A stretch of DNA of 64,000 bases, from NCBI RefSeq assembly GCF_000620085.1, contig NZ_JHVJ01000007.1, forward strand, positions 62,001 through 126,000, given 5' to 3'. This document shows positions 4,970-21,783 of this stretch, in pieces. Origin of the DNA: Marinobacterium jannaschii DSM 6295 (GTDB lineage Bacteria; Pseudomonadota; Gammaproteobacteria; Pseudomonadales; Balneatricaceae). Position 1 is the first letter of the stretch, and the number at the start of each line of letters is the position of its first letter. The position numbers were made by a program, and so were the translations under genes. The notes beneath the pieces are model-generated. The model saw only the letters and a program-made list of their open reading frames with translations, was not told where the DNA came from and ran no database searches.

Positions 4970-5935
4970 ATGACCCCCGAAGAACAGAACTTCATGCGCA
5001 AGATCGAAACGGAAGAGAAGATCGAACCCAAGGACTGGATGCCGGAGGCGTATCGCAAGAACCTGATCCGTCAGATCTCCCAGCACGCCCACTCCGAGGT
5101 GATCGGCACCCAGCCGGAGGGCAACTGGATCACCCGCGCACCCTCGCTGCGCCGTAAGGCAGTATTGCTGGCCAAGGTACAGGACGAGGCCGGCCACGGC
5201 CTCTACCTCTACAGCGCCACCGAAACCCTCGGCATCAGCCGCGATGAGATGATCGCCGCGCTGCAGGATGGCAGTGCCAAGTATGCCTCGATCTTCAACT
5301 ACCCGGCCCAGACCTGGGGCGATGTCGGTGCCATCGGCTGGCTGGTTGACGGTGCCGCCATCGTCAACCAGGTCTCGCTGCAGCGCACCTCCTATGGCCC
5401 TTACGCCCGCGCCATGATCCGTATCTGTAAGGAAGAGAGTTTCCACCAGCGTCAGGGCTACGAGCTGATGCTGGAGCTGTGCCGCGGCACCCCGGAGCAG
5501 AAGGCGATGGCACAGGACTCGCTCAACCGCTTCTACTGGCCCGCCCTGATGATGTTCGGCCCCCATGACAGCGAATCGGCCCACAGCGCCCGTTCGATGC
5601 AATGGAAGATCAAACGTGAGAGCAACGACGACCTGCGACAGAAATTTATCGACCAGACCGTGAAGCAGATCGAGTTCCTCGGCCTGGAGCATCCGGATAA
5701 GGCGATCTGCTGGAATGAAGCGCGTGGCCACTACGACAGCGGCGAGATCGACTGGGATGAGTTCTACGCCGTGATCAACGGTAACGGCCACTGCAACCGC
5801 CAGCGCCTGCAGCACCATATCAAGGTGCATGAGGAAGGCAGCTGGGTACGCGAAGCCCTGGCCGCCTACAACGAAAAGCAAAAAGCCCGCAAACAGCAGG
5901 CAGAAGCCAATAAAAGCAATCAGAACGTCGCTTAG
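4970..5935 (+). CDS. paaA: phenylacetyl-CoA epoxidase subunit PaaA
   Basis: Catalytic di-iron subunit of the phenylacetyl-CoA 1,2-epoxidase (PaaABCE), which inserts one oxygen atom into the aromatic ring. Ferritin-like fold with KVQDEAGHG and later [13 protein letters not shown] carrying the iron-ligand Glu/His pairs. I place the start at 4970 because GGAGA sits 9 nt upstream and the protein then begins MTPEEQNFM as in relatives; an in-frame ATG at 4952 has no Shine-Dalgarno. The result is 321 residues. First gene of the paaABCDE unit, behind a 305-bp leader. Confidence 0.95.
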
Positions 5936-5947
5936 GAGAGCATCCCC

Positions 5948-6235
5948 ATGACGACCGAAAACCTGGAACTGTTCGAAGTCTTTATCCGCTCCAAGCGCGG
6001 GCTGGACCATAAACATGTCGGCAGCCTGCATGCCGAAGACCCGGCCCAGGCGCTGGAATACGCCCGCGACTGTTATACCCGGCGCAGCGAAGGCGTCAGC
6101 ATCTGGGTGGTGCGCTCGGCGGATATCGTCGCCTCTCAGGAGGACGATGCGGAGAGTTTCTACGACCCGTCTGATGACAAGCCCTATCGCCACGCCACCT
6201 ATTACCAGTTACCGGACCCGGTCAATAACATGTGA
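5948..6235 (+). CDS. paaB: phenylacetyl-CoA epoxidase subunit PaaB
   Basis: Small subunit (95 residues) of the PaaABCE multicomponent epoxidase, which bridges catalytic PaaAC dimers. The typical N-terminus ends in LELFEVFIRSKRGLDHKHVG, and RSADIVAS is in the middle. A good ribosome site (GGAGAG) lies 7 nt upstream, and the gene follows paaA by 12 bp. Confidence 0.95.
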   Translation: MTTENLELFEVFIRSKRGLDHKHVGSLHAEDPAQALEYARDCYTRRSEGVSIWVVRSADIVASQEDDAESFYDPSDDKPYRHATYYQLPDPVNNM

Positions 6236-6309
6236 CGCCCTGCAGCCCAGGTCGAAGCAAACGGACAGCACTGAAATGTTGTGAACTGCAGCGAACAGAG
6301 TCGAGAAAG

Positions 6310-7080
6310 ATGATGAGCGAACAACAACTACAACAAGCCACCTTCGAGTACACCCTGCGCCTGGGCGACGATGCCCTGGTACTGGGTCACCGCATCTCCG
6401 AATGGGTCCGCAACGGCCCCTTCCTCGAAGAGGATATCGCCTATGGCAATGTGGCCCTGGACTATATCGGCCGCGCCCGGATGTTTTACGGCTATGCCGC
6501 CGAGCTGGCCGACGATGGCCGCACTGAAGACAGCTTTGCCTATACCCGCAGCGAGCGTGAATTCAGCAACCTGCTGATCAATGAACTTCCACGGGGCGAC
6601 TTCGCCTACTCCCAGGTACGGCAGCTGCTGGTCGACATCTATGCCAACCTGTTCCTGACCCGGCTTCTACAGTCGAAAGACGCCACCCTCGCAGCCATTG
6701 CCGCCAAGGCCATCAAGGAGAGCCGCTATCACCTGCGCCGCAGCCGTGAATGGGTGATCCGCCTCGGTGACGGCACCGAAGAGAGCCAGCATCGCTGCCA
6801 GCTGGCGCTGGACGATATCTGGGGCTACAGCCACGAGATGTTCGAGATGGATGCGCTGGAGCAACAACTGGCCGATGCCGGTATCGGCGTCGATGTCAGC
6901 AGCCTGCGCGATGACTGGCTGGTGCAGATCAGAGAGATCCTGGCAGAAGCCACCCTGCAGCTCCCGGCCGATGACTGGAAGGTGAGCGGCGGCCGCGATG
7001 GCTACCACACCGAGTTTCTCGGCCATCTGCTGACCGAGCTGCAGATCGTGCACCGCTCCTATCCCGGCTGCCAGTGGTGA
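6310..7080 (+). CDS. paaC: phenylacetyl-CoA epoxidase subunit PaaC
   Basis: Structural, metal-free ferritin-like partner of PaaA in the epoxidase. The visible segment DDALVLGHRISEWV near the N-terminus and NELPRGDFAYSQVRQ match the family. The frame is open from 6232, but the first ~26 codons give an unrelated basic stretch, so I choose the tandem ATG at 6310/6313 after GAGAAAG. This gives about 256 residues, family size. There is an unusually long 74-bp gap after paaB. Confidence 0.94.
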   Translation: MMSEQQLQQATFEYTLRLGDDALVLGHRISEWVRNGPFLEEDIAYGNVALDYIGRARMFYGYAAELADDGRTEDSFAYTRSEREFSNLLINELPRGDFAYSQVRQLLVDIYANLFLTRLLQSKDATLAAIAAKAIKESRYHLRRSREWVIRLGDGTEESQHRCQLALDDIWGYSHEMFEMDALEQQLADAGIGVDVSSLRDDWLVQIREILAEATLQLPADDWKVSGGRDGYHTEFLGHLLTELQIVHRSYPGCQW

Positions 7081-15179: not shown

Positions 15180-16108
15180 TGCAGCTCGACGTGGTGGTAG
15201 GGTTCTTCCTGCTGGGGATGGTCGCTCAACTGCTGAAGGCACCGATCCGGATGCCGAAAGGGTTGTACCAATCGCTCACCCTGTTTTTGCTGATCGCCAT
15301 CGGCCTTAAGGGCGGCGTGGCGCTCAACAGCCATGCCTCTGGTGACCTGCTGATCCAGGCGGTGGCGGTTATCGCCTTTGGCCTGGCCCTGCCGCTGATC
15401 GCTTTCCCGATCCTGTATAAAATCGGCGGCCTCTCCCGTATCGATTCCGCATCGGTGGCAGCCCACTATGGATCGGTCAGCGTGGCAACCTTCGCCGTGG
15501 CCGTCGCAGTATTAGAAGCCAATCAGATCGACTACGAACCCTACTTCCCCCTCTTCGTGGCGCTGCTGGAAGTACCGGCCATCGCCGTGGGCCTCTGGCT
15601 GGCGCGCGATCGCAACCAGACCCTCGATCTTAAAAAGACCGCCCATGAGATCTTCCTTAACCAGGGCGTGCTGTTACTGGTCGGCGGGCTGCTGATCGGC
15701 TGGTGGGCCGGTGCCCGCGCCGACACAATACTGCCTTTCTTCGGCACCCTGTTTCATGGCGTGCTGGCGCTGTTCCTGCTGGAGATGGGTCGCATCGCCG
15801 CCTCCCAACTGGGTGTATTGCGCAGCTGCGGCTCATTTATCGCCAGCTTCGGTGTCCTGATGCCACTCCTCGGCGCAGCCTTGGGCGCACTGCTGGCGCA
15901 GCTGCTGGAACTATCCAGCGGCGGCGTCATCTTGCTGGCAACCCTCGGCGGCAGCGCCTCCTATATCGCAGTACCGGCAGCGATGGCCGTCGCACTGCCG
16001 AAAGCCAACCAAAGCCTGTCGATTACAGCCGCCCTCGCCATCAGCTTCCCGTTTAATATTCTGGTGGCGATTCCGCTGTACAGCGTATTGATAGGACAGG
16101 GTTACTAA
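15179..16108 (+). CDS. sbtA: SbtA-type sodium-dependent bicarbonate transporter
   Basis: Inner-membrane permease of about 309 residues with ten hydrophobic segments in two inverted halves, matching the SbtA (DUF897) family. Recognisable stretches are LLKAPIRMPKGLYQSLTLFL, AHYGSVSVATFAVAVA and GGSASYIAVPAAMAVALP. Family members import bicarbonate with sodium. In a heterotroph it may supply bicarbonate for carboxylases. It is coupled to the small membrane protein upstream and divergent from a CbbR-like LysR, and ends before a clear terminator. Confidence 0.88.
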   Translation: MQLDVVVGFFLLGMVAQLLKAPIRMPKGLYQSLTLFLLIAIGLKGGVALNSHASGDLLIQAVAVIAFGLALPLIAFPILYKIGGLSRIDSASVAAHYGSVSVATFAVAVAVLEANQIDYEPYFPLFVALLEVPAIAVGLWLARDRNQTLDLKKTAHEIFLNQGVLLLVGGLLIGWWAGARADTILPFFGTLFHGVLALFLLEMGRIAASQLGVLRSCGSFIASFGVLMPLLGAALGALLAQLLELSSGGVILLATLGGSASYIAVPAAMAVALPKANQSLSITAALAISFPFNILVAIPLYSVLIGQGY

Positions 16109-16168
16109 GCGGGGGATTAAAACTCTGGTTAGCACCTTGTATCAAATCAGAAGGTCTCACAAGGCAAT

Positions 16169-16201
16169 AAAAAGACCCCGGCACGAAGCTGGGGTCTTTT
16201 T
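16169..16201 (+). terminator. intrinsic terminator of the sbtA unit
   Basis: AAAAAGACCCC and GGGGTCTTTTT form an 11-bp stem with an 11-nt loop; the right arm ends in a T-run. It lies 60 bp after the sbtA stop. Confidence 0.85.
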
Positions 16202-16306
16202 ATTGGTGTCGCTGGCCGGGAAGGCAGCCCGCTGGTGGTCTACCCTATTCCGGCCCAGAAGAGAGGTGGGGCTGTGGCAGGTAAATACCATCACTGTACG
16301 AACTTG

Positions 16307-16627
16307 CTATGAACTGGAAACCAAAACAACAGCGATGCCATATGTAAACTGAGATAAAATCACAACAACAAGAAAGCTGCCAATGACATAGTTAGGCACT
16401 ACATTTTTCAGCATATACCAAGAAATTGATATCTGAGCTAGTGCTTGCACAACCGCAATACCAATAAAATGCCGCAAACTCCACAGAGTAACCTCGAGTT
16501 CCGGCATAGATGTTCTGTATGTAATAACAAAAGGGAAAATACTTAATATACAAACAGCTGAAAATATCCCCTTTTTCTTCCAGGCAGCTAAATCTTTTGA
16601 CAATAGATTTTGTTTAATATTATTCAA
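16307..16627 (-). CDS. small hypothetical membrane protein (TTG start)
   Basis: 106-residue protein with three hydrophobic helices (GIFSAVCILSIFPFVITY, FIGIAVVQALAQISISWYML, YVIGSFLVVVILSQFTYGI). Base composition is AT-rich compared with the catabolic genes around it. It begins with TTG at 16627 preceded by GGGAGG. No family recognised. The first 17 codons and the upstream region recur, decayed, at 18572-18660, so this gene was duplicated with the leader repeat. It may be mobile cargo. Confidence 0.6.
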   Translation of the reverse strand: MNNIKQNLLSKDLAAWKKKGIFSAVCILSIFPFVITYRTSMPELEVTLWSLRHFIGIAVVQALAQISISWYMLKNVVPNYVIGSFLVVVILSQFTYGIAVVLVSSS

Positions 16628-16668
16628 ATTTCCTCCCTGAAAATAGCATCTGCTCGCAGCCGGCGCAG

Positions 16669-16776
16669 CTCACCTGAACTCCTCCATGAGTTTCAATATC
16701 GCAGCCAATCCCTAGCTGCCGGAATTCACTTTAGATCAGTCAACTCCATCTGTAAGTTTTGGTGGGTGTCCTTTTT
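16669..16776 (-). repeat. RAYT leader repeat, copy A
   Basis: About 105-bp unit found six times between 16.67 and 19.04 kb. Read on the minus strand it begins at AAAAAGGACACCCACCAAAA and ends at the start codon position of a transposase head. Copy A is the most diverged, with its start codon mutated (GTG-like). After an 8-codon head it joins the upstream region of the small membrane protein. Confidence 0.75.
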
Positions 16777-16801
16777 CTAACCGTTGTTTTCTAGTTGCTG
16801 C

Positions 16802-17527
16802 CTAGAGTCGAAGATCGAGTGGAAACCAAATCTCGCCACGTGAATACAATTCGCCCTCTTTCGACAGCACTATGCCATTTCTAAGCCATAGATATGATGA
16901 GTTGCCTTCGGACACATCGAAATCCATCGCAAATATTGGAAATCCCAGTGCCATTCGAACATTTACTCGTTTTTTTGCTTCAAACGAGATATCTAGCTGC
17001 AACTCCTGATTGAGTAAAGAAACCACTTTGATGCTCTTATACGACTCAATATTGCGCAGCCAATCCAGCAACAGCTCATCCTGAATTAACTCAAAGATGA
17101 AATACTCTTCAGTCTCTACATCACCTAAGGTGACTTGGCAAGGAACAAGGAGGTTTCGGTCATTCGACACAAACCGAAGAGTTCCTTCTACTCTATCAGC
17201 AACAAACCAACCTTTAAGCTCTTGAGAAACGCGTCGATCTTCGATCATTGAGCTAATAACGATTGACCCTTGAATATTTTGAGCATGAATAATTCCGTGA
17301 CAATCTCGGCATAAAAGAAGGCATTTATCAACCTCTTCAATCTGTTCGGCAGAAATTGATCTTTTCATCAATACCGTGTAGTCGGAACACTTTTGCTCTG
17401 GTTCTACATGGTGAAACTCAAACATCCGGTTGAAAGTTCCATATCGAGCAACCATCTCTTCAACCGACTTGCCACAGTGTGAACAGCGGTCTCCTCGATA
17501 TTTATACAGCTGTGCTCTATTAGCCAT
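16802..17527 (-). CDS. HNH endonuclease family protein
   Basis: 241-residue protein with an N-terminal HNH nuclease module: zinc-type CSHCG near residue 15, FEFHHVEPEQKCSDY with the catalytic His, and CRDCHGIIHAQN completing it. The C-terminal ~150 residues are rich in beta-strand-like sequence and unrecognised. Start ATG 17527 has GAGGT 7 nt upstream. The gene sits inside the repeat array between leader copy A and transposase head B, with GGACACCC tips in inverted orientation on both sides. Its AT-rich codon use is unlike the neighbouring catabolic genes. It may be defence or mobile cargo; the function is not established. Confidence 0.8.
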   Translation of the reverse strand: MANRAQLYKYRGDRCSHCGKSVEEMVARYGTFNRMFEFHHVEPEQKCSDYTVLMKRSISAEQIEEVDKCLLLCRDCHGIIHAQNIQGSIVISSMIEDRRVSQELKGWFVADRVEGTLRFVSNDRNLLVPCQVTLGDVETEEYFIFELIQDELLLDWLRNIESYKSIKVVSLLNQELQLDISFEAKKRVNVRMALGFPIFAMDFDVSEGNSSYLWLRNGIVLSKEGELYSRGEIWFPLDLRL

Positions 17528-17575
17528 ATTGATTACCTCACGCCCCCATTTTCGACTGGCTTGGCGAGTACTTTA

Positions 17576-17589
17576 GGACACCCATCAAA
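17576..17589 (+). repeat. inverted copy of the leader tip
   Basis: GGACACCCATCAAA, in the orientation opposite to all six leaders. With TTTTGGTGGGTGTCC at 16757-16771 it forms an inverted pair around the HNH gene (13 of 14 bases match). Confidence 0.6.
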
Positions 17590-17592
17590 TTC

Positions 17593-17752
17593 ACTCGGTG
17601 ATTCGGTCTAGAATCCATTGCCGTCGATGTTCGTAGGATTCACCTGAAAACTGATCCTCACCGCACAAGAAAGCACGGCGAACACTACGGGCAATACAGT
17701 GGTAATAAGGGGTTTCGGGCAGGCTTACCTGCTCACAGCGGGCGCGGGTCAT
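17593..17752 (-). pseudogene. REP-associated transposase head, copy B
   Basis: 5' end of a REP-associated tyrosine (HUH/Y1-like) transposase: MTRARCEQVSLPETPYYHC and on through [14 protein letters not shown], intact for about 53 codons. It is cut before the catalytic HUH motif. The truncation lies next to the inverted GGACACCC tip. Full-length relatives are about 300 residues. Confidence 0.8.
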
Positions 17753-17855
17753 CTGAACTCCTACATGAGATTCAATATCGCAGCCAATCCTTGGCTACCG
17801 GGATTCACTGTAGATCAGTCCATCCCGACTGTAAATTTTGGTGGGTGTCCTTTTT
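17753..17855 (-). repeat. RAYT leader repeat, copy B
   Basis: 103-bp leader directly upstream of transposase head B. It contains AGCCAA-tcc-TTGGCT and the larger CGGGATT...CATCCCG hairpin region next to a CTAC/GTAG tetranucleotide, as in REP elements. Confidence 0.8.
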
Positions 17856-17863
17856 CTCACCCC

Positions 17864-18042
17864 ATGGCAAATACCGCATCCAGCTCGGTGATTCGGTCAA
17901 GAATCCACTGCCGTCGGTGTTCGTAGGATTCTCCTGAAAACTGATCCTCACCGCACAAGAAAGCACGGCGAACACAACGGGCAATACAGTGGTAATAAGG
18001 GGTGTCGGGCAGGCTTACCTGCTCACAGCGGGCGCGGGTCAT
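17864..18042 (-). pseudogene. REP-associated transposase head, copy C
   Basis: First ~59 codons of the same transposase ([19 protein letters not shown] ... ELDAVFA), in frame, then cut and joined to leader B within a few bases. Lacks the HUH motif. Confidence 0.82.
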
Positions 18043-18145
18043 ACAAACTCCTCCATGAGATTCAATATCGCAGCCAATCCTTGGCTACCGGGATTCACTG
18101 TAGTTCAGTCAATCCCGACTGTAAATTTTGGTGGGTGTCCTTTTT
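18043..18145 (-). repeat. RAYT leader repeat, copy C
   Basis: 103-bp leader upstream of head C, nearly identical to copy D, including the stem CGGGATT/AATCCCG. Confidence 0.82.
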
Positions 18146-18468
18146 ATTTTCTGAATCAGCACAGGGCCTGTAAACAACAGCTTCCAGCGCCGAATCACCT
18201 CTCTGTCAGACCAACTCTCAGCCTGCGCCTGATCGACCCGCAGCACCAGATGATAGTGGTTGGACATAATGGCATAGGCGCAGATATCGATGGCAAATAC
18301 CGCATCCAACTCGGTGATTCGGTCAAGAATCCACTGCCGTCAGTGTTCGTAGGATTCTCCTGAAAACTGATCCTCACCGCACAAGAAAGCACGGCGAACA
18401 CAACGGGCAATACAGTGGTAATAAGGGGTGTCGGGCAGGCTTACCTGCTCACAGCGGGCGCGGGTCAT
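18146..18468 (-). pseudogene. REP-associated transposase head, copy D (has HUH motif, in-frame stop)
   Basis: Longest copy, about 107 codons. It includes the HUH motif MSNHYHLVLRVD of Y1 transposases, then WKLLFTGPVLIQKI where it is cut and joins leader C. A TGA replaces the Arg codon after SYEH, so it is dead as well as truncated. It shows what the shorter copies come from. Confidence 0.85.
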
Positions 18469-18571
18469 ACAAACTCCTCCATGAGATTCAATATCGCAGC
18501 CAATCCTTGGCTACCGGGATTCACTGTAGTTCAGTCAATCCCGACTGTAAATTTTGGTGGGTGTCCTTTTT
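18469..18571 (-). repeat. RAYT leader repeat, copy D
   Basis: 103-bp leader. The clearest hairpin of the set is at 18515-18543: CGGGATT-c-ACTG-tagtt-CAGT-c-AATCCCG, 11 paired bases with one C/C mismatch, beside CTAC. This looks like a REP hairpin that a RAYT would bind. Confidence 0.82.
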
Positions 18572-18660
18572 CTATTTCCAGGCAGCTACATCTGTTGCCA
18601 ATAGATCTTCTTTAATATTATTCAAACTTCTTCCCTGAAAATAGCATCTGCTCGCAACGG
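18572..18660 (-). pseudogene. decayed 5' end of the small membrane protein gene
   Basis: TTG start at 18625 and 17 codons (NNIKEDLLATDVAAWK) resemble the start of the 16307-16627 gene (NNIKQNLLSKDLAAWK). The frame stops where it meets leader D. The upstream junction to an 8-codon transposase head (CEQ, then ATGCTATTTTCAGG) is the same as at copy A, so both derive from one joined ancestor. Confidence 0.75.
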
Positions 18661-18671
18661 GCGCAGGTCAT

Positions 18672-18773
18672 CTGAATTTCTCCATGAGATTCAATATCGC
18701 AGCCAATCCTTGGCTACCGGGATTCACTGTAGATCAGTCAACTCCATCTGTAAATTTTGGTGGGTGTCCTTTT
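18672..18773 (-). repeat. RAYT leader repeat, copy E
   Basis: Leader copy followed on the minus strand by only 8 transposase codons (MTCARCEQ) and then the membrane-protein upstream region. Confidence 0.78.
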
Positions 18774-18791
18774 CTCCCTGCTTTTCTCCCT

Positions 18792-18937
18792 GTCAAGAAT
18801 CCACTGCCGTCGATGTTTGTAGGATTCACCCGAAAACCGATCCTCGCCGCACAAGAAAGCACGGCGAACACATCGGGAATACAGTGATAGTAAGGAGTGT
18901 CGGGCAGGCTTACCTGCTCAAAACGGGCGCGGGCCAT
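18792..18937 (-). pseudogene. REP-associated transposase head, copy F (frameshifted)
   Basis: Starts [20 protein letters not shown]; a single-base loss then shifts the frame (other copies read [12 protein letters not shown]). It is cut near the WILD codons and joined to leader E through a short CCCTG-rich stretch. Confidence 0.78.
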
Positions 18938-19040
18938 ATGCATTCCTCCATGATTTTCAATATTGCAGCCAATCCTTGGCGATCGGAATTCAATGTAGTT
19001 CAGGCAACTCCGTCTGTAAATTTTCGTGGGTGTCCTTTTT
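18938..19040 (-). repeat. RAYT leader repeat, copy F
   Basis: Right-hand end of the array; diverged leader with TTTTCGTGGGTGTCC tip. Beyond it a T/C-rich stretch joins the SNase remnant. Confidence 0.75.
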
Positions 19041-19065
19041 CTTTTGTTTCCTTTTTCTTCTTCCC

Positions 19066-19177
19066 TGATTACTATAAAGCGGATAATGAAGCTAAAGCTA
19101 ATAAAGCTGGCCTATGGAGAATATCAAAGCCTCAAGCTATACCACCTTGGGAGTGGCGAAAAGTTCGGAAAAATTAG
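19066..19177 (+). pseudogene. C-terminal remnant of a SNase-like nuclease gene
   Basis: About 36 codons (KADNEAKANKAGLWRISKPQ, IPPWEWRK) match the typical C-terminus of staphylococcal-nuclease-like (thermonuclease) proteins. The rest of the gene is missing on the side facing leader F, so the array edge replaced it. Confidence 0.65.
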
Positions 19178-19220
19178 TAAGTAACTTAGCTAAATAGCGT
19201 AACAAAACGGAGGCTTACAA

Positions 19221-19502
19221 ATGAAAACCTACAAAGCATTAGCCCTACTCCCCTTGCTTGTGTCTGGGTGTGGAGCTGAAAGCAAAGCAACTGTATCTGA
19301 GCAAAAAATCAATAACTGCAAACAAATGATTAATTACTCAAGCGGACACGATCTTTCAAGATTAACATATATGGAAGCTAAATCTGACGGCAGCATCTAT
19401 ATTGACTATCAGAAAAGATCAGGAGGAACACTAAAGTACTCCTGCAAGAGTGGTGCGCTAAGCGTTTGGGCTGATGGGGCAGGTATGTGGTTGAAAATTT
19501 AA
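19221..19502 (+). CDS. small putative lipoprotein
   Basis: 93-residue protein with a signal peptide ending in the lipobox LVSGC (Cys about residue 17), so probably membrane-anchored. Two more Cys residues at about 33 and 75 may form a disulfide. GGAGG lies 7 nt upstream of the ATG. No family recognised. AT-rich, in the accessory zone. Confidence 0.65.
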   Translation: MKTYKALALLPLLVSGCGAESKATVSEQKINNCKQMINYSSGHDLSRLTYMEAKSDGSIYIDYQKRSGGTLKYSCKSGALSVWADGAGMWLKI

Positions 19503-19900
19503 ATTCTGTAATAGATTTCGTATTTATCAGACATGATGTGTCACTCCCTGTAGGGGTTAAACTATAGAGGTGACACAGAATTTTGAACACTACCGACCAA
19601 AATTGACTACAGATCGATCAGTCCCAGCTGCGGGCTCTGTGGGCATTTTTCCAATAAGATTATCTTTAGGCACTAGGCAGTAACAGCTGCCCCCCTCCCC
19701 TGCATGCTCCCGCCCCACCCTTTCTCCGGCATCAGGTCATTACCTAGTACCTGTCCCACTCAACACAAAGAGTTCTTTCCAATGGATCTAAAAGATACAC
19801 ATTTAGATAATAAAAATTTACTTCACCAATAGATAAGCAAATTTTTCTTAGCTTAGACAATCATAGAAAGCGCTTACGCATATAAATATTGGCTTTTGCT
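19503..19900. other. gene-poor accessory stretch
   Basis: About 400 bp with no credible gene. A short stretch near 19600-19650 (GACTACAGATCGATCAGTCC) faintly resembles the leader repeat. The rest is AT-rich and unassigned. Confidence 0.4.
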
Positions 19901-20185
19901 ATGACGGACACACCGAAAATAGTGCAGCAAGTTAAGCAACTTGCCGAGTTACGGTAACAACGCAATCTGCAACCGTTCGCCAATGTCGGTGAGCTGATAC
20001 GAGATGCACGAACGTACCAGCAGCTGACCATTGACGATCTGGCGCCCTACAGCAACGCTTCAGAGGTCGCCATTGGCAAGATCGAGCACGGTGCTACAAA
20101 CGTGACAGTATCTAAATTCAAGGCGGTACTGGGCGCTGAGCTTGAGCCTATGGATCAGTTAGCGGAGGTTTACGACAGGGGCTGA
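19901..20185 (+). pseudogene. XRE/HipB-like antitoxin-type regulator, broken
   Basis: One frame from ATG 19901 to TGA 20183 reads MTDTPKIVQQVKQLAELR, stop TAA (19955-19957), then VGELIRDARTYQQLTIDDLA ... IGKIEHGATNVTVSKFKAVL. This is an XRE helix-turn-helix of the HipB sort. A protein could restart after the stop only from a weak codon. No intact HipA partner follows; 20186-20463 holds open but stop-interrupted sequence on the plus strand that I cannot identify. Confidence 0.6.
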
Positions 20186-20463
20186 CTTTATGACCCTGGC
20201 CGGGAATATAGGTCTACCGGTCAAAGTGGCCGATAAGGCGATCACAGACTTGGGAAAAGCCCTGGTTAAGATCAAGGCCCTGATCAGCCGTTCCTACCTC
20301 TAGGATGAACTGAAAAAAAGGTTCCTGGCGCTGGTAGTGAGTCGGTACCGGGCTATCTGTACGATAAGGCAGGGGCGACCAGTCTACGGACAGGCTGGCC
20401 GACCAAAAAGAGCGGTCTGGTAGGTTGGCAGCCCCGGACCTCAACCGATCATCCTCTGAATAA

Positions 20464-21783
20464 TTACAGCTCAACCGCTGGCAGCACGGTGGCAACCACC
20501 TCACCAAAACCAATCCGTGGCGCGCCCGCTTTTTCACAGCAGCCGCGCAGGATGACGCTGTCGCCATCGGCGAGGAAGGTGCGGGTTTCGCCGTTGGGCA
20601 GGGTGATGGGTTGTTTGCCGCCCTGACTCAGTTCCAGTAGCGAGCCGGATTCGCTCTGTTCCGGGCCGGACTGGGTGCCGCTGCCGAAGAAATCGCCCGG
20701 TTTCAGGTTACAGCCGTTGATGCTGTGATGGCTGACCATCTGGGCGATGCTCCAGTAGGAGTCGCGGAAGTTGGACGCAGACAGGCGGCAGGCGGGTTCA
20801 CCGGCCTCACGCATCTGAGCGGTCTGCAGCAGTACTTCCAGCTGGATATCCAGCGCGCCACTGGCCCTGTTCTGTGCTGATTCCAGGTAGCTCAGGGGTT
20901 GTGGGTCTGCACTGTCACGCTGCCAGGCGGTGCGGTAAGGGGCCAGGGCTTCCAGGGTGATAACCCAGGGCGATACGGTGGAGGCAAAACTCTTGGAGAG
21001 GAAAGGCCCCAGCGGCTGGTATTCCCAGGCCTGAATATCCCGTGCCGACCAGTCGTTAAACAGGCAGAGGCCAAAGACATGGTTATCCGCCGCATCCAGT
21101 GCAATCGGCTCACCCAGTTCATTACCTGCGCCGATATAGATCCCCAGTTCCAGTTCGTAATCCAGTCGCTTACAGGGGCCAAGGCTTGGCACTTCGGCAT
21201 CCGGGGCCTTGGTCTGCCCCAATGGGCGGCGGAACTGCTGGCCGGAGATCCCGATCGAGGAGCTGCGACCGTGATAGCCGATCGGCACCCATTTGTAGTT
21301 GGGCAGCAGCGGATTATCGGGCCGGAACAGGCTACCCACCCGGGTAGCATGGTGGATTGAAGTGTAGAAGTCGGTGTAGTCACCGATGGTGGCGGGCAGT
21401 TTGTACTCCGCATCTGCCTGGGGCAGCAGACAGGCCTGCAGCTGCCCCGCCTCGGCCGCGCCCTCGCGCAGCGCCCGCGACAGTGCCAGACGCAACGCCG
21501 ACCAGGCGGGCTGGCCCAGTGCCATCAGGGAATTCAGCGTATCGCCCTGACAGGCCGCCAGCGCCTCAGCCGCCTCCCCTGCCACTACGCCGCTGTCCTG
21601 CAACTGTTGCAGGTCGAGGATCTGATCGCCAATCGCCACACCTGCACGAAAGGCCTCTTCGCTGCCCACGCGGCGGAAGACGCCAAAGGGCAGGTTCTGA
21701 ATCGGAAAGTCGCACCCTGACTGGTTGGCAGAGCGCACCCAGCTTCTAAGTGCGGGGGCATGGGTTTCATTGAGTAATTCCAT
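20464..21783 (-). CDS. fahA: fumarylacetoacetase
   Basis: Hydrolyses 4-fumarylacetoacetate to fumarate and acetoacetate, the last step of homogentisate (tyrosine/phenylalanine, 3-hydroxyphenylacetate) breakdown. 439 residues from ATG 21783, family length. The active-site segment YTDFYTSIHHATRVG carries the catalytic His and metal-binding Asp, and YKWVPIGYHGRSSSI follows. The GTG one codon earlier is a less likely start. Last gene of a minus-strand unit with DUF2783, an FAD monooxygenase and an MBL protein. Confidence 0.94.
   Translation of the reverse strand: MELLNETHAPALRSWVRSANQSGCDFPIQNLPFGVFRRVGSEEAFRAGVAIGDQILDLQQLQDSGVVAGEAAEALAACQGDTLNSLMALGQPAWSALRLALSRALREGAAEAGQLQACLLPQADAEYKLPATIGDYTDFYTSIHHATRVGSLFRPDNPLLPNYKWVPIGYHGRSSSIGISGQQFRRPLGQTKAPDAEVPSLGPCKRLDYELELGIYIGAGNELGEPIALDAADNHVFGLCLFNDWSARDIQAWEYQPLGPFLSKSFASTVSPWVITLEALAPYRTAWQRDSADPQPLSYLESAQNRASGALDIQLEVLLQTAQMREAGEPACRLSASNFRDSYWSIAQMVSHHSINGCNLKPGDFFGSGTQSGPEQSESGSLLELSQGGKQPITLPNGETRTFLADGDSVILRGCCEKAGAPRIGFGEVVATVLPAVEL

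Follow-up and report, generated by a model that had tools for sequence, protein, structure and literature searches.

In a 64,000-nt stretch of the Marinobacterium jannaschii DSM 6295 genome (hereafter the window), six truncated copies of the beginning, or head, of a transposase-carrying element lie in tandem on the minus strand. We read the array as the degraded remains of several left ends of a mobile element. The array is real; in kind it is not unique, and similar arrays recur in many bacteria. The end motifs, the polarity of the heads, their fixed versus variable edges, their local homogeneity and their recurrence at both element ends and in many genomes are all directly visible. As to their origin, we consider it an even bet that such arrays are generated by the HUH transposase of the element, which would nick, extend and rejoin DNA at its own ends.

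The array and the full-length element

The six heads begin at the motif GGACACCCAC, which starts at window positions 19035, 18769, 18566, 18140, 17850 and 16771 (copies 1 to 6, respectively) and of which 0.14 matches are expected by chance in the window. A previous sequence-only reading of this DNA had described six tandem heads on the minus strand with a shared left edge, and these are indeed present at the six sites. The full-length copy which that reading hoped to find elsewhere in the genome exists at locus L015. This element measures 1145 bp from motif to motif (L015:3636-4780), possesses both ends and carries an open transposase frame of 340 codons from an upstream ATG, or 328 codons if the start is taken as the ATG at L015:3735, which lies 100 nt inward of the left motif. 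Aligned to it, the heads of copies 1 to 6 extend over 242, 122, 416, 277, 250 and 122 nt with 81-88% identity, and their right edges fall at codons 48, 8, 106, 60, 51 and 8 of the 328-codon transposase, close to the cut points read before (8, 8, ~49, ~53, ~59 and ~107 codons).

Copy 1 (18770..19044) consists of an outer prefix and a head to about codon 48 (18794..19035), followed by 24 nt of AGGGAGAAAA-type sequence leading into copy 2. Copy 3 (18150..18575), with the longest of the heads (18151..18566), and copy 4 (17860..18149, head 17864..18140) meet the next motif after 10 nt and 13 nt, respectively. The claim that each copy reaches the next edge within 0-25 bp is thus borne out for copies 1, 3 and 4, and fails for copies 2, 5 and 6. 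After the head of copy 2 (18576..18778, head 18648..18769) come 81 nt, about 71 nt of which are homologous to the DNA past copy 6. Copy 5 (17576..17859, head 17601..17850) is followed by 829 nt containing an inverted right end, GATGGGTGTCC (window 17576), and a 241-aa open reading frame (ORF); judging by its sequence, copy 5 is an internally deleted element. Copy 6 (16650..16780) has foreign DNA next, and no seventh head was found past it. Identity reaches 99.6% (over 255 nt) between copies 3 and 4 and is 78-95% for the remaining window pairs; a 198-nt match between copies 2 and 6, at 90% identity, takes in their heads, and both run into a common foreign sequence. The repeat taken earlier to start at AAAAAGGACACCC is present, but it reaches a few nt further out: most window copies have AGAAAAA ahead of the motif, copy 2 has GAGAAAA, and copy 4 has AATAAAAA.

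The element is present in the same genome in several copies at unrelated places, a search returning 13 matches with the head as query and 18 with the full element. L016 and L017 are internally deleted copies, and immediately upstream of the L015 element stand one head truncated near codon 50 and others that break off after 10-13 nt. Another copy, the L014 element, lies inside a transposase gene, of which an intact relative (L264) is 78% identical; we take this interrupted gene to be of the IS256 type. Among four congeners searched with the element, three gave no match and one gave a 35-nt match (E 9.9e-4). A PF01797 profile search of the element's own genome did not detect it, and Rfam at gathering scores returned no match in window 15500-20500.

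Related transposases were collected as the best 80 of 590 confirmed places in a named genome collection; by their titles these 80 loci presumably all belong to Gammaproteobacteria, as far as we recognise the names, L106 being titled only Proteobacteria. With at most five candidates scored per genome, 115 of the 390 genomes of the order hold a match at E<=1e-20, many of them at least three. In an alignment (A1) of 25 proteins from the 80 loci, which covers neither the own-genome protein nor L118, whose frame contains a stop codon, N70, H71, H73 and Y183-P188 are invariant, and Y72, W162 and E163 are conserved in at least 90%. The own-genome protein contains NHYH, WE and YVDLNP; the HuH-Y distance is 110 (H73 to Y183, L040 numbering), and the protein is 328 aa long. 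The accessible text of a survey of TnpAY1 proteins (Quentin et al. 2018, PMC6006769) gives NHYH/WE/YVDLNP, about 325 aa, a median HuH-Y distance of 110 and a multi-copy habit in Proteobacteria for subclass 2.3. By motifs, length, HuH-Y distance and multi-copy habit the transposase appears to match this subclass, which fits it better than the classical REP-flanked REP-associated tyrosine transposase (RAYT; REP, repetitive extragenic palindrome) proposed at first.

NCBIfam NF047646 (REP transposase) gives 41.5 bits, below its cut-off of 80, and Pfam Y1_Tnp gives no match to the own-genome protein and 17.6 bits, below its cut-off of 23, to L040. An AlphaFold2 model (predicted local distance difference test, pLDDT, 84.5) has a sole PDB match at E<=0.001, namely 4er8 (E 6.1e-4, probability 1.00), a REP-associated tyrosine transposase with REP hairpin, with a template-modelling (TM) score of 0.59 by target and 0.32 by query and a root-mean-square deviation of 11.2. 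Other Y1 transposases match the model at E 0.1-1, and a search of the PDB by sequence gave no match at E<=0.1.

Element ends with one fixed and one free edge

Within 300 bp upstream of the 80 genes, GGACACCC occurs 58 times in the gene direction and never reversed, and within 300 bp downstream it occurs 29 times pointing inward and once outward. Counted without prior assumption, the commonest octamer is GACACCCA, found in 78 of the 160 flanks. A degenerate form of the motif is found at 62 of 80 left ends and 49 of 80 right ends, and the remaining ends may have been missed by it. From zero to seven heads are detected per end. At least two such motifs occur at 23 left and 22 right ends of the 80 loci, so the right end shows the same pattern as the left, and the one-sided element envisaged in the sequence-only reading has to be given up in favour of one with inverted ends.

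The element lies between inverted GGACAYCC-type motifs, with its boundary apparently about 8-12 nt outside each. The outer 9-mer is part of the element: in one genome (G172), five copies inserted at separate sites all have cgattcat or cgaatcat at their left edge, and at their right edge (a)acaaaatt or a form of it that differs by one base. The best junction evidence comes from two loci, the L014 element within the transposase gene and a pair of duplicates in L279. In the latter, X1 lacks the element that is found at the end of its 99.7% identical duplicate X2, and comparison of X1 with X2 sets the left boundary 10-12 nt outside GGACATCC. We note that in L109 the left and right ends share the outer 8-mer gaaatata; the two ends differ in most elements viewed.

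The sharpness of this outer edge was measured on 200 copies from other genomes, the window's own genome being left out; 189 copies remained after removal of those identical around the gene start, and they provide 238 ends with the motif. Averaged over 197 neighbouring head pairs in 107 arrays, copy-to-copy identity outside the motif is 0.80-0.92 at -1 to -5, passes through 0.77, 0.74 and 0.68 at -6 to -8, and then drops to 0.59 at -9, 0.47 at -10 and about 0.35 at -11, where the background is about 0.33. Inward, identity decays slowly and is about 0.5 at +20 to +35. The constant left edge and variable right edge first noticed in the window are therefore seen again in other genomes. The outer 9-mer recurs 288 times at 117 of the 238 ends; shuffled 9-mers recur on average 78 times at 32 ends, and the 9-mer lying just beyond the outer one has 105 recurrences at 44 ends. 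A mosaic decoding with free segment starts finds 406 extra segments at 131 of the 238 ends, and the controls give 21-34 segments in five shuffles and 88 segments at 45 of 230 anchors placed 250 nt outside. Nearly half of the decoded segments that do not touch the reference limit (182 of 372) begin at -11 to -7.

The inner edge is free. Among 175 decoded units with this outer edge, sought over no more than 350 nt, the right edges have a median of +10, quartiles of +3 and +24, a 90th percentile of +70 and a maximum of +228. A BLAST search for longer heads covered as much as 1600 nt ahead of each of 128 distinct left ends, with matches of at least 60 nt; it found 43 upstream partial copies, of which 31, at 22 loci, begin exactly at the motif and end between +61 and +609. 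Fifteen of these 31 stop by +100. In L046 (Cycloclasticus), heads of 150, 173, 391 and 89 nt and a stretch with small ORFs precede a full element, an arrangement that, by its sequence, repeats the architecture of the window array. Copy 2, with GGAAGAAAAAGG in the post-copy-6 DNA, had suggested stopping at a prefix-like sequence, but this does not hold generally: the sequence past the stop point compares with the outer 9-mer, the sole signal compared, at 2.57 versus 2.62 of 9 (p=0.77), so a termination signal of this kind finds no support. The right flank of L231 carries about six prefix-only units of 10-11 nt (gggctacat) past the last right-end motif, as if stops could fall 1-2 nt from the motif.

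Origin of the arrays and their surroundings

To our knowledge, how RAYT-like enzymes multiply short end sequences is unsettled. HUH enzymes of this class use a tyrosine to cut single DNA strands and to join them again. In IS200/IS605 transposases and TnpAREP, the 5' end is held by the enzyme and the 3' end is freed. The accessible text of the TnpAY1 survey describes the cleavage chemistry of IS200/IS605 and TnpAREP as shared (PMC6006769). We propose, at even chances as stated above, that the transposase would nick one strand about 9-10 nt, and in any case about 8-12 nt, outside the end motif, and that its tyrosine would hold the 5' end after the nick. A polymerase would then lengthen the 3' end left on the flank, copying a short stretch of variable length from the element end, after which the enzyme would ligate the extended strand to the 5' end on its tyrosine. 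With every such cycle the array would gain one tandem unit, beginning at the boundary and ending at any point between a few nt and about 600 nt inside. Where synthesis runs past a unit or a right end, the new unit would include further units or DNA from the flank. We infer all three steps (nick, synthesis and rejoining) as well as the part played by the enzyme. Extension before rejoining would give an exact left edge, an arbitrary right edge, arrays at either end, local homogeneity and usually short units, and read-through in place would lead to joint duplication of several neighbouring units. That a whole family of HUH transposases replicates its own ends in place, forming end clusters and occasionally trapping neighbour genes, we hold with a little less than even confidence.

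The chief rival is one-ended transposition in trans, in which a left-anchored fragment of variable length from a distant copy lands at a resident left edge, as in IS91/IS801. We compared copies of one genome with similar heads: the outer 9-mer differs by 1.55 mismatches within arrays (56 pairs), by 2.99 between loci (173 pairs) and by 5.25 in random pairs. Truncated heads are usually closest to the adjacent copy, several arrays having no second same-genome copy for comparison; identities to the adjacent and to the other same-genome copy are 100 versus 96.2% in L195, 98.3 versus 92.1% in L245, 97.8 versus 96.1% in L231 and 94.0 versus 78.2% in L176, with a near tie in L200. Both results speak against a distant source, units of 10-15 nt are hard to picture as transposed fragments, and one-ended movement, to which the sequence-only reading had tentatively traced the heads, is not the probable source of most of them. 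Most truncated heads look locally made in these comparisons. In addition, six arrays contain nine multi-unit blocks that were each duplicated as a whole, and six of the nine start 9-13 nt outside the motif.

Several observations weigh against local nicking, extension and rejoining, and some of them favour transposition in trans. As to the edges, 12 of the 43 long upstream copies begin off the motif, some being parts of neighbouring elements, so that the exact left edge expected in copies elsewhere holds for most and not for all. Furthermore, 120 of the 372 decoded segments begin at -6 or further in and 70 at -15 to -12, and in three of the nine multi-unit blocks the start coincides with the motif. 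As to the source of the heads, copies 3 and 4 match the longer copies L014 and L015 at only 85-86% identity, which puts their source outside the assembly, and copy 3 exceeds its right-hand neighbour in length. Copies 2 and 6, which share the stretch of about 71 nt past their heads, are 2 kb apart. L199_1 shows 97.0% identity to another locus of its genome and 93.8% to its neighbour. Finally, no strain pair differing by one unit was found among the loci compared. The missing close source of copies 3 and 4, the distant match of copy 2 and the affinity of L199_1 would all be explained by transposition in trans. So would a 1161-bp segment of L279 with a 244-aa ORF, present twice (L279:2596-3756 and 5916-7076) at 99.7% identity, whose second copy fills, to within a few nt, the space that separates the right end of one element from the left end of the next; the ORF presumably encodes an FkbM-type methyltransferase. 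All considered, we regard transposition in trans as unlikely for the arrays as a whole, and distant one-ended transposition as possible for a minority of heads.

Deletion anchored at an element, by which tandem full elements would be shortened to the left boundary of the next element, would yield the same final structure, and internally deleted elements do exist (copy 5, L016 and L017). However, this explanation expects endpoints across 1.1-1.3 kb, whereas half of the 175 units stop by +10 in the 350-nt search and 15 of the 31 motif-starting long heads stop by +100 among matches of at least 60 nt; we think it quite improbable. We see an equally slim chance that replication slippage and unequal crossing-over produced the arrays without the transposase. 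The outer prefixes are A-rich and some arrays are near-exact (91 bp in L057, 49 bp in L085), so later slippage probably adds copies, but such processes offer no reason for a constant distance between motif and boundary across unrelated prefixes while the other edge is free. Least probable of all is that selection keeps the arrays, whatever their origin, as clustered transposase binding sites or decoys: arrays do stand at both ends of many elements, but the number of heads varies from end to end and their composition differs at orthologous loci.

Such differences at orthologous loci count in favour of growth in place. In two Pseudoalteromonas shioyasakiensis strains the element occupies one shared site, preceded by six left heads in L143 and by two in L145, in surroundings that are only about 86-90% identical; L207 and L211, at one locus, have right-hand arrays with altogether different prefixes, as read by eye. 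No clean set of empty-site alleles, which the sequence-only reading had hoped would support a mobile element, was found among the congeners, at the Pseudoalteromonas IDH-ilvB site or in the genus of G257. For the window and L015 loci, flank matches in the four congeners are too distant (68-78%). Three relatives lack the element at IDH-ilvB, where the intergenic DNA is too diverged for an exact junction. The genus of G034 offered only two genomes for this search. In the genus of G257 (48 genomes), 45 have a flank match to the L207 locus. Of 29 loci read by eye (L281-L309), 14 are head-like at the same point, one of them (L282) being a full element, 6 are doubtful and 9 are unlike. These readings suggest that the insertion, upstream of a gene that we take to be MYG1-like, is old, inherited and partly decayed.

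Turning to the surroundings of the window array, the 241-aa ORF (16802..17527, minus strand) occupies the interval from the copy 5 right end to copy 6. Its HNH similarity (16.4 bits) is below the Pfam cut-off of 21.4, and it was possibly captured. Beyond copy 6 follows a 106-aa ORF with a TTG start (16307..16627, minus strand), a membrane protein by eye, which starts inside the sequence common with copy 2 and has no Pfam or NCBIfam match. Just beyond the other side of the array, window 19511-19601 is 95% identical to the start of the transposase gene interrupted by the L014 element. The flanks of L105 and L223 resemble integron attC cassette arrays by eye (GTTATGC-type palindromes and small ORFs), and attC-like cassette arrays might be a favoured landing zone. 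Two records are unusual in their titles: L080, from a record titled as a Klebsiella pneumoniae metagenome-assembled genome, carries a copy of a family that is otherwise mostly marine and is possibly a misbinned contig, and L148 (NZ_AP026896.1) is listed as an Aeromonas caviae plasmid, yet at 4.9 Mb it is chromosome-sized.

Comparison with known systems

The element shares features with several described systems. Like IS91 and IS801, as presented in the accessible text of PMC3189936, it has one fixed end and one variable end, and adjacent DNA is sometimes carried along. According to the same text, fragments of IS801 insert at new sites and end at a target-like tetranucleotide, and IS91 is described as lacking proper terminal inverted repeats, whereas the present element has inverted ends. 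Helitrons, in the accessible texts of PMC4778049 and PMC2267711, are likewise HUH elements with premature 3' truncation, read-through capture and head-to-tail neighbours; unlike the element here, they have a helicase domain and a 3' hairpin termination signal, and they are eukaryotic.

The leader of the window heads contains GTAGCC-AAGGATT-GGCTGC (by eye), away from the element edge. With the E. coli-type RAYT/REPtron the element has in common the predicted fold, which matches 4er8. It differs in that the gene is multi-copy and the ends are GGACAYCC, with no GTAG-hairpin REP shown at the edges. The TIRYT/TIRtron is closer in layout: the accessible text of Di Nocera et al. 2013 (PMC3733652) describes a Y1 gene between terminal inverted repeats (TIRs), some sharing GGGGWSAS, and mentions TIR dimers and clusters. 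Here, too, inverted repeats flank a Y1 transposase gene. GGGGACAC would fit the TIR GGGGWSAS where GG precedes GGACACCC. GGGGWSAS needs GG before GGACAC; position -1 is a G in 31% of the 62 left ends and 23% of the 44 right ends, and for position -2 the figures are 18% and 14%, respectively. The fixed-edge heads of variable length are not described in that text. In terms of classification, the accessible text of the 2018 survey (PMC6006769) places 20 of 26 TIRYTs in subclass 2.1 and the remaining six in 2.2 or 2.5.

For subclass 2.3, no REP-like flanking repeats were identified in the accessible text of that survey (Quentin et al. 2018, PMC6006769), and the word 'tandem' does not occur in its main text; here, inverted GGACAYCC ends and end arrays are found. 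A literature search of openly accessible main texts returned neither GGACAYCC ends for subclass 2.3 nor fixed-edge head arrays. The present comparison thus supplies candidate ends for this subclass. At both ends of its elements this family leaves a trace that is sharp on one side and free on the other, which confines the proposed cut to a few nt and makes the first step of the mechanism testable with a short DNA substrate and purified enzyme. If nicking, extension and rejoining were general for TnpAY1 proteins, they could be a route by which REP and TIR clusters arise.

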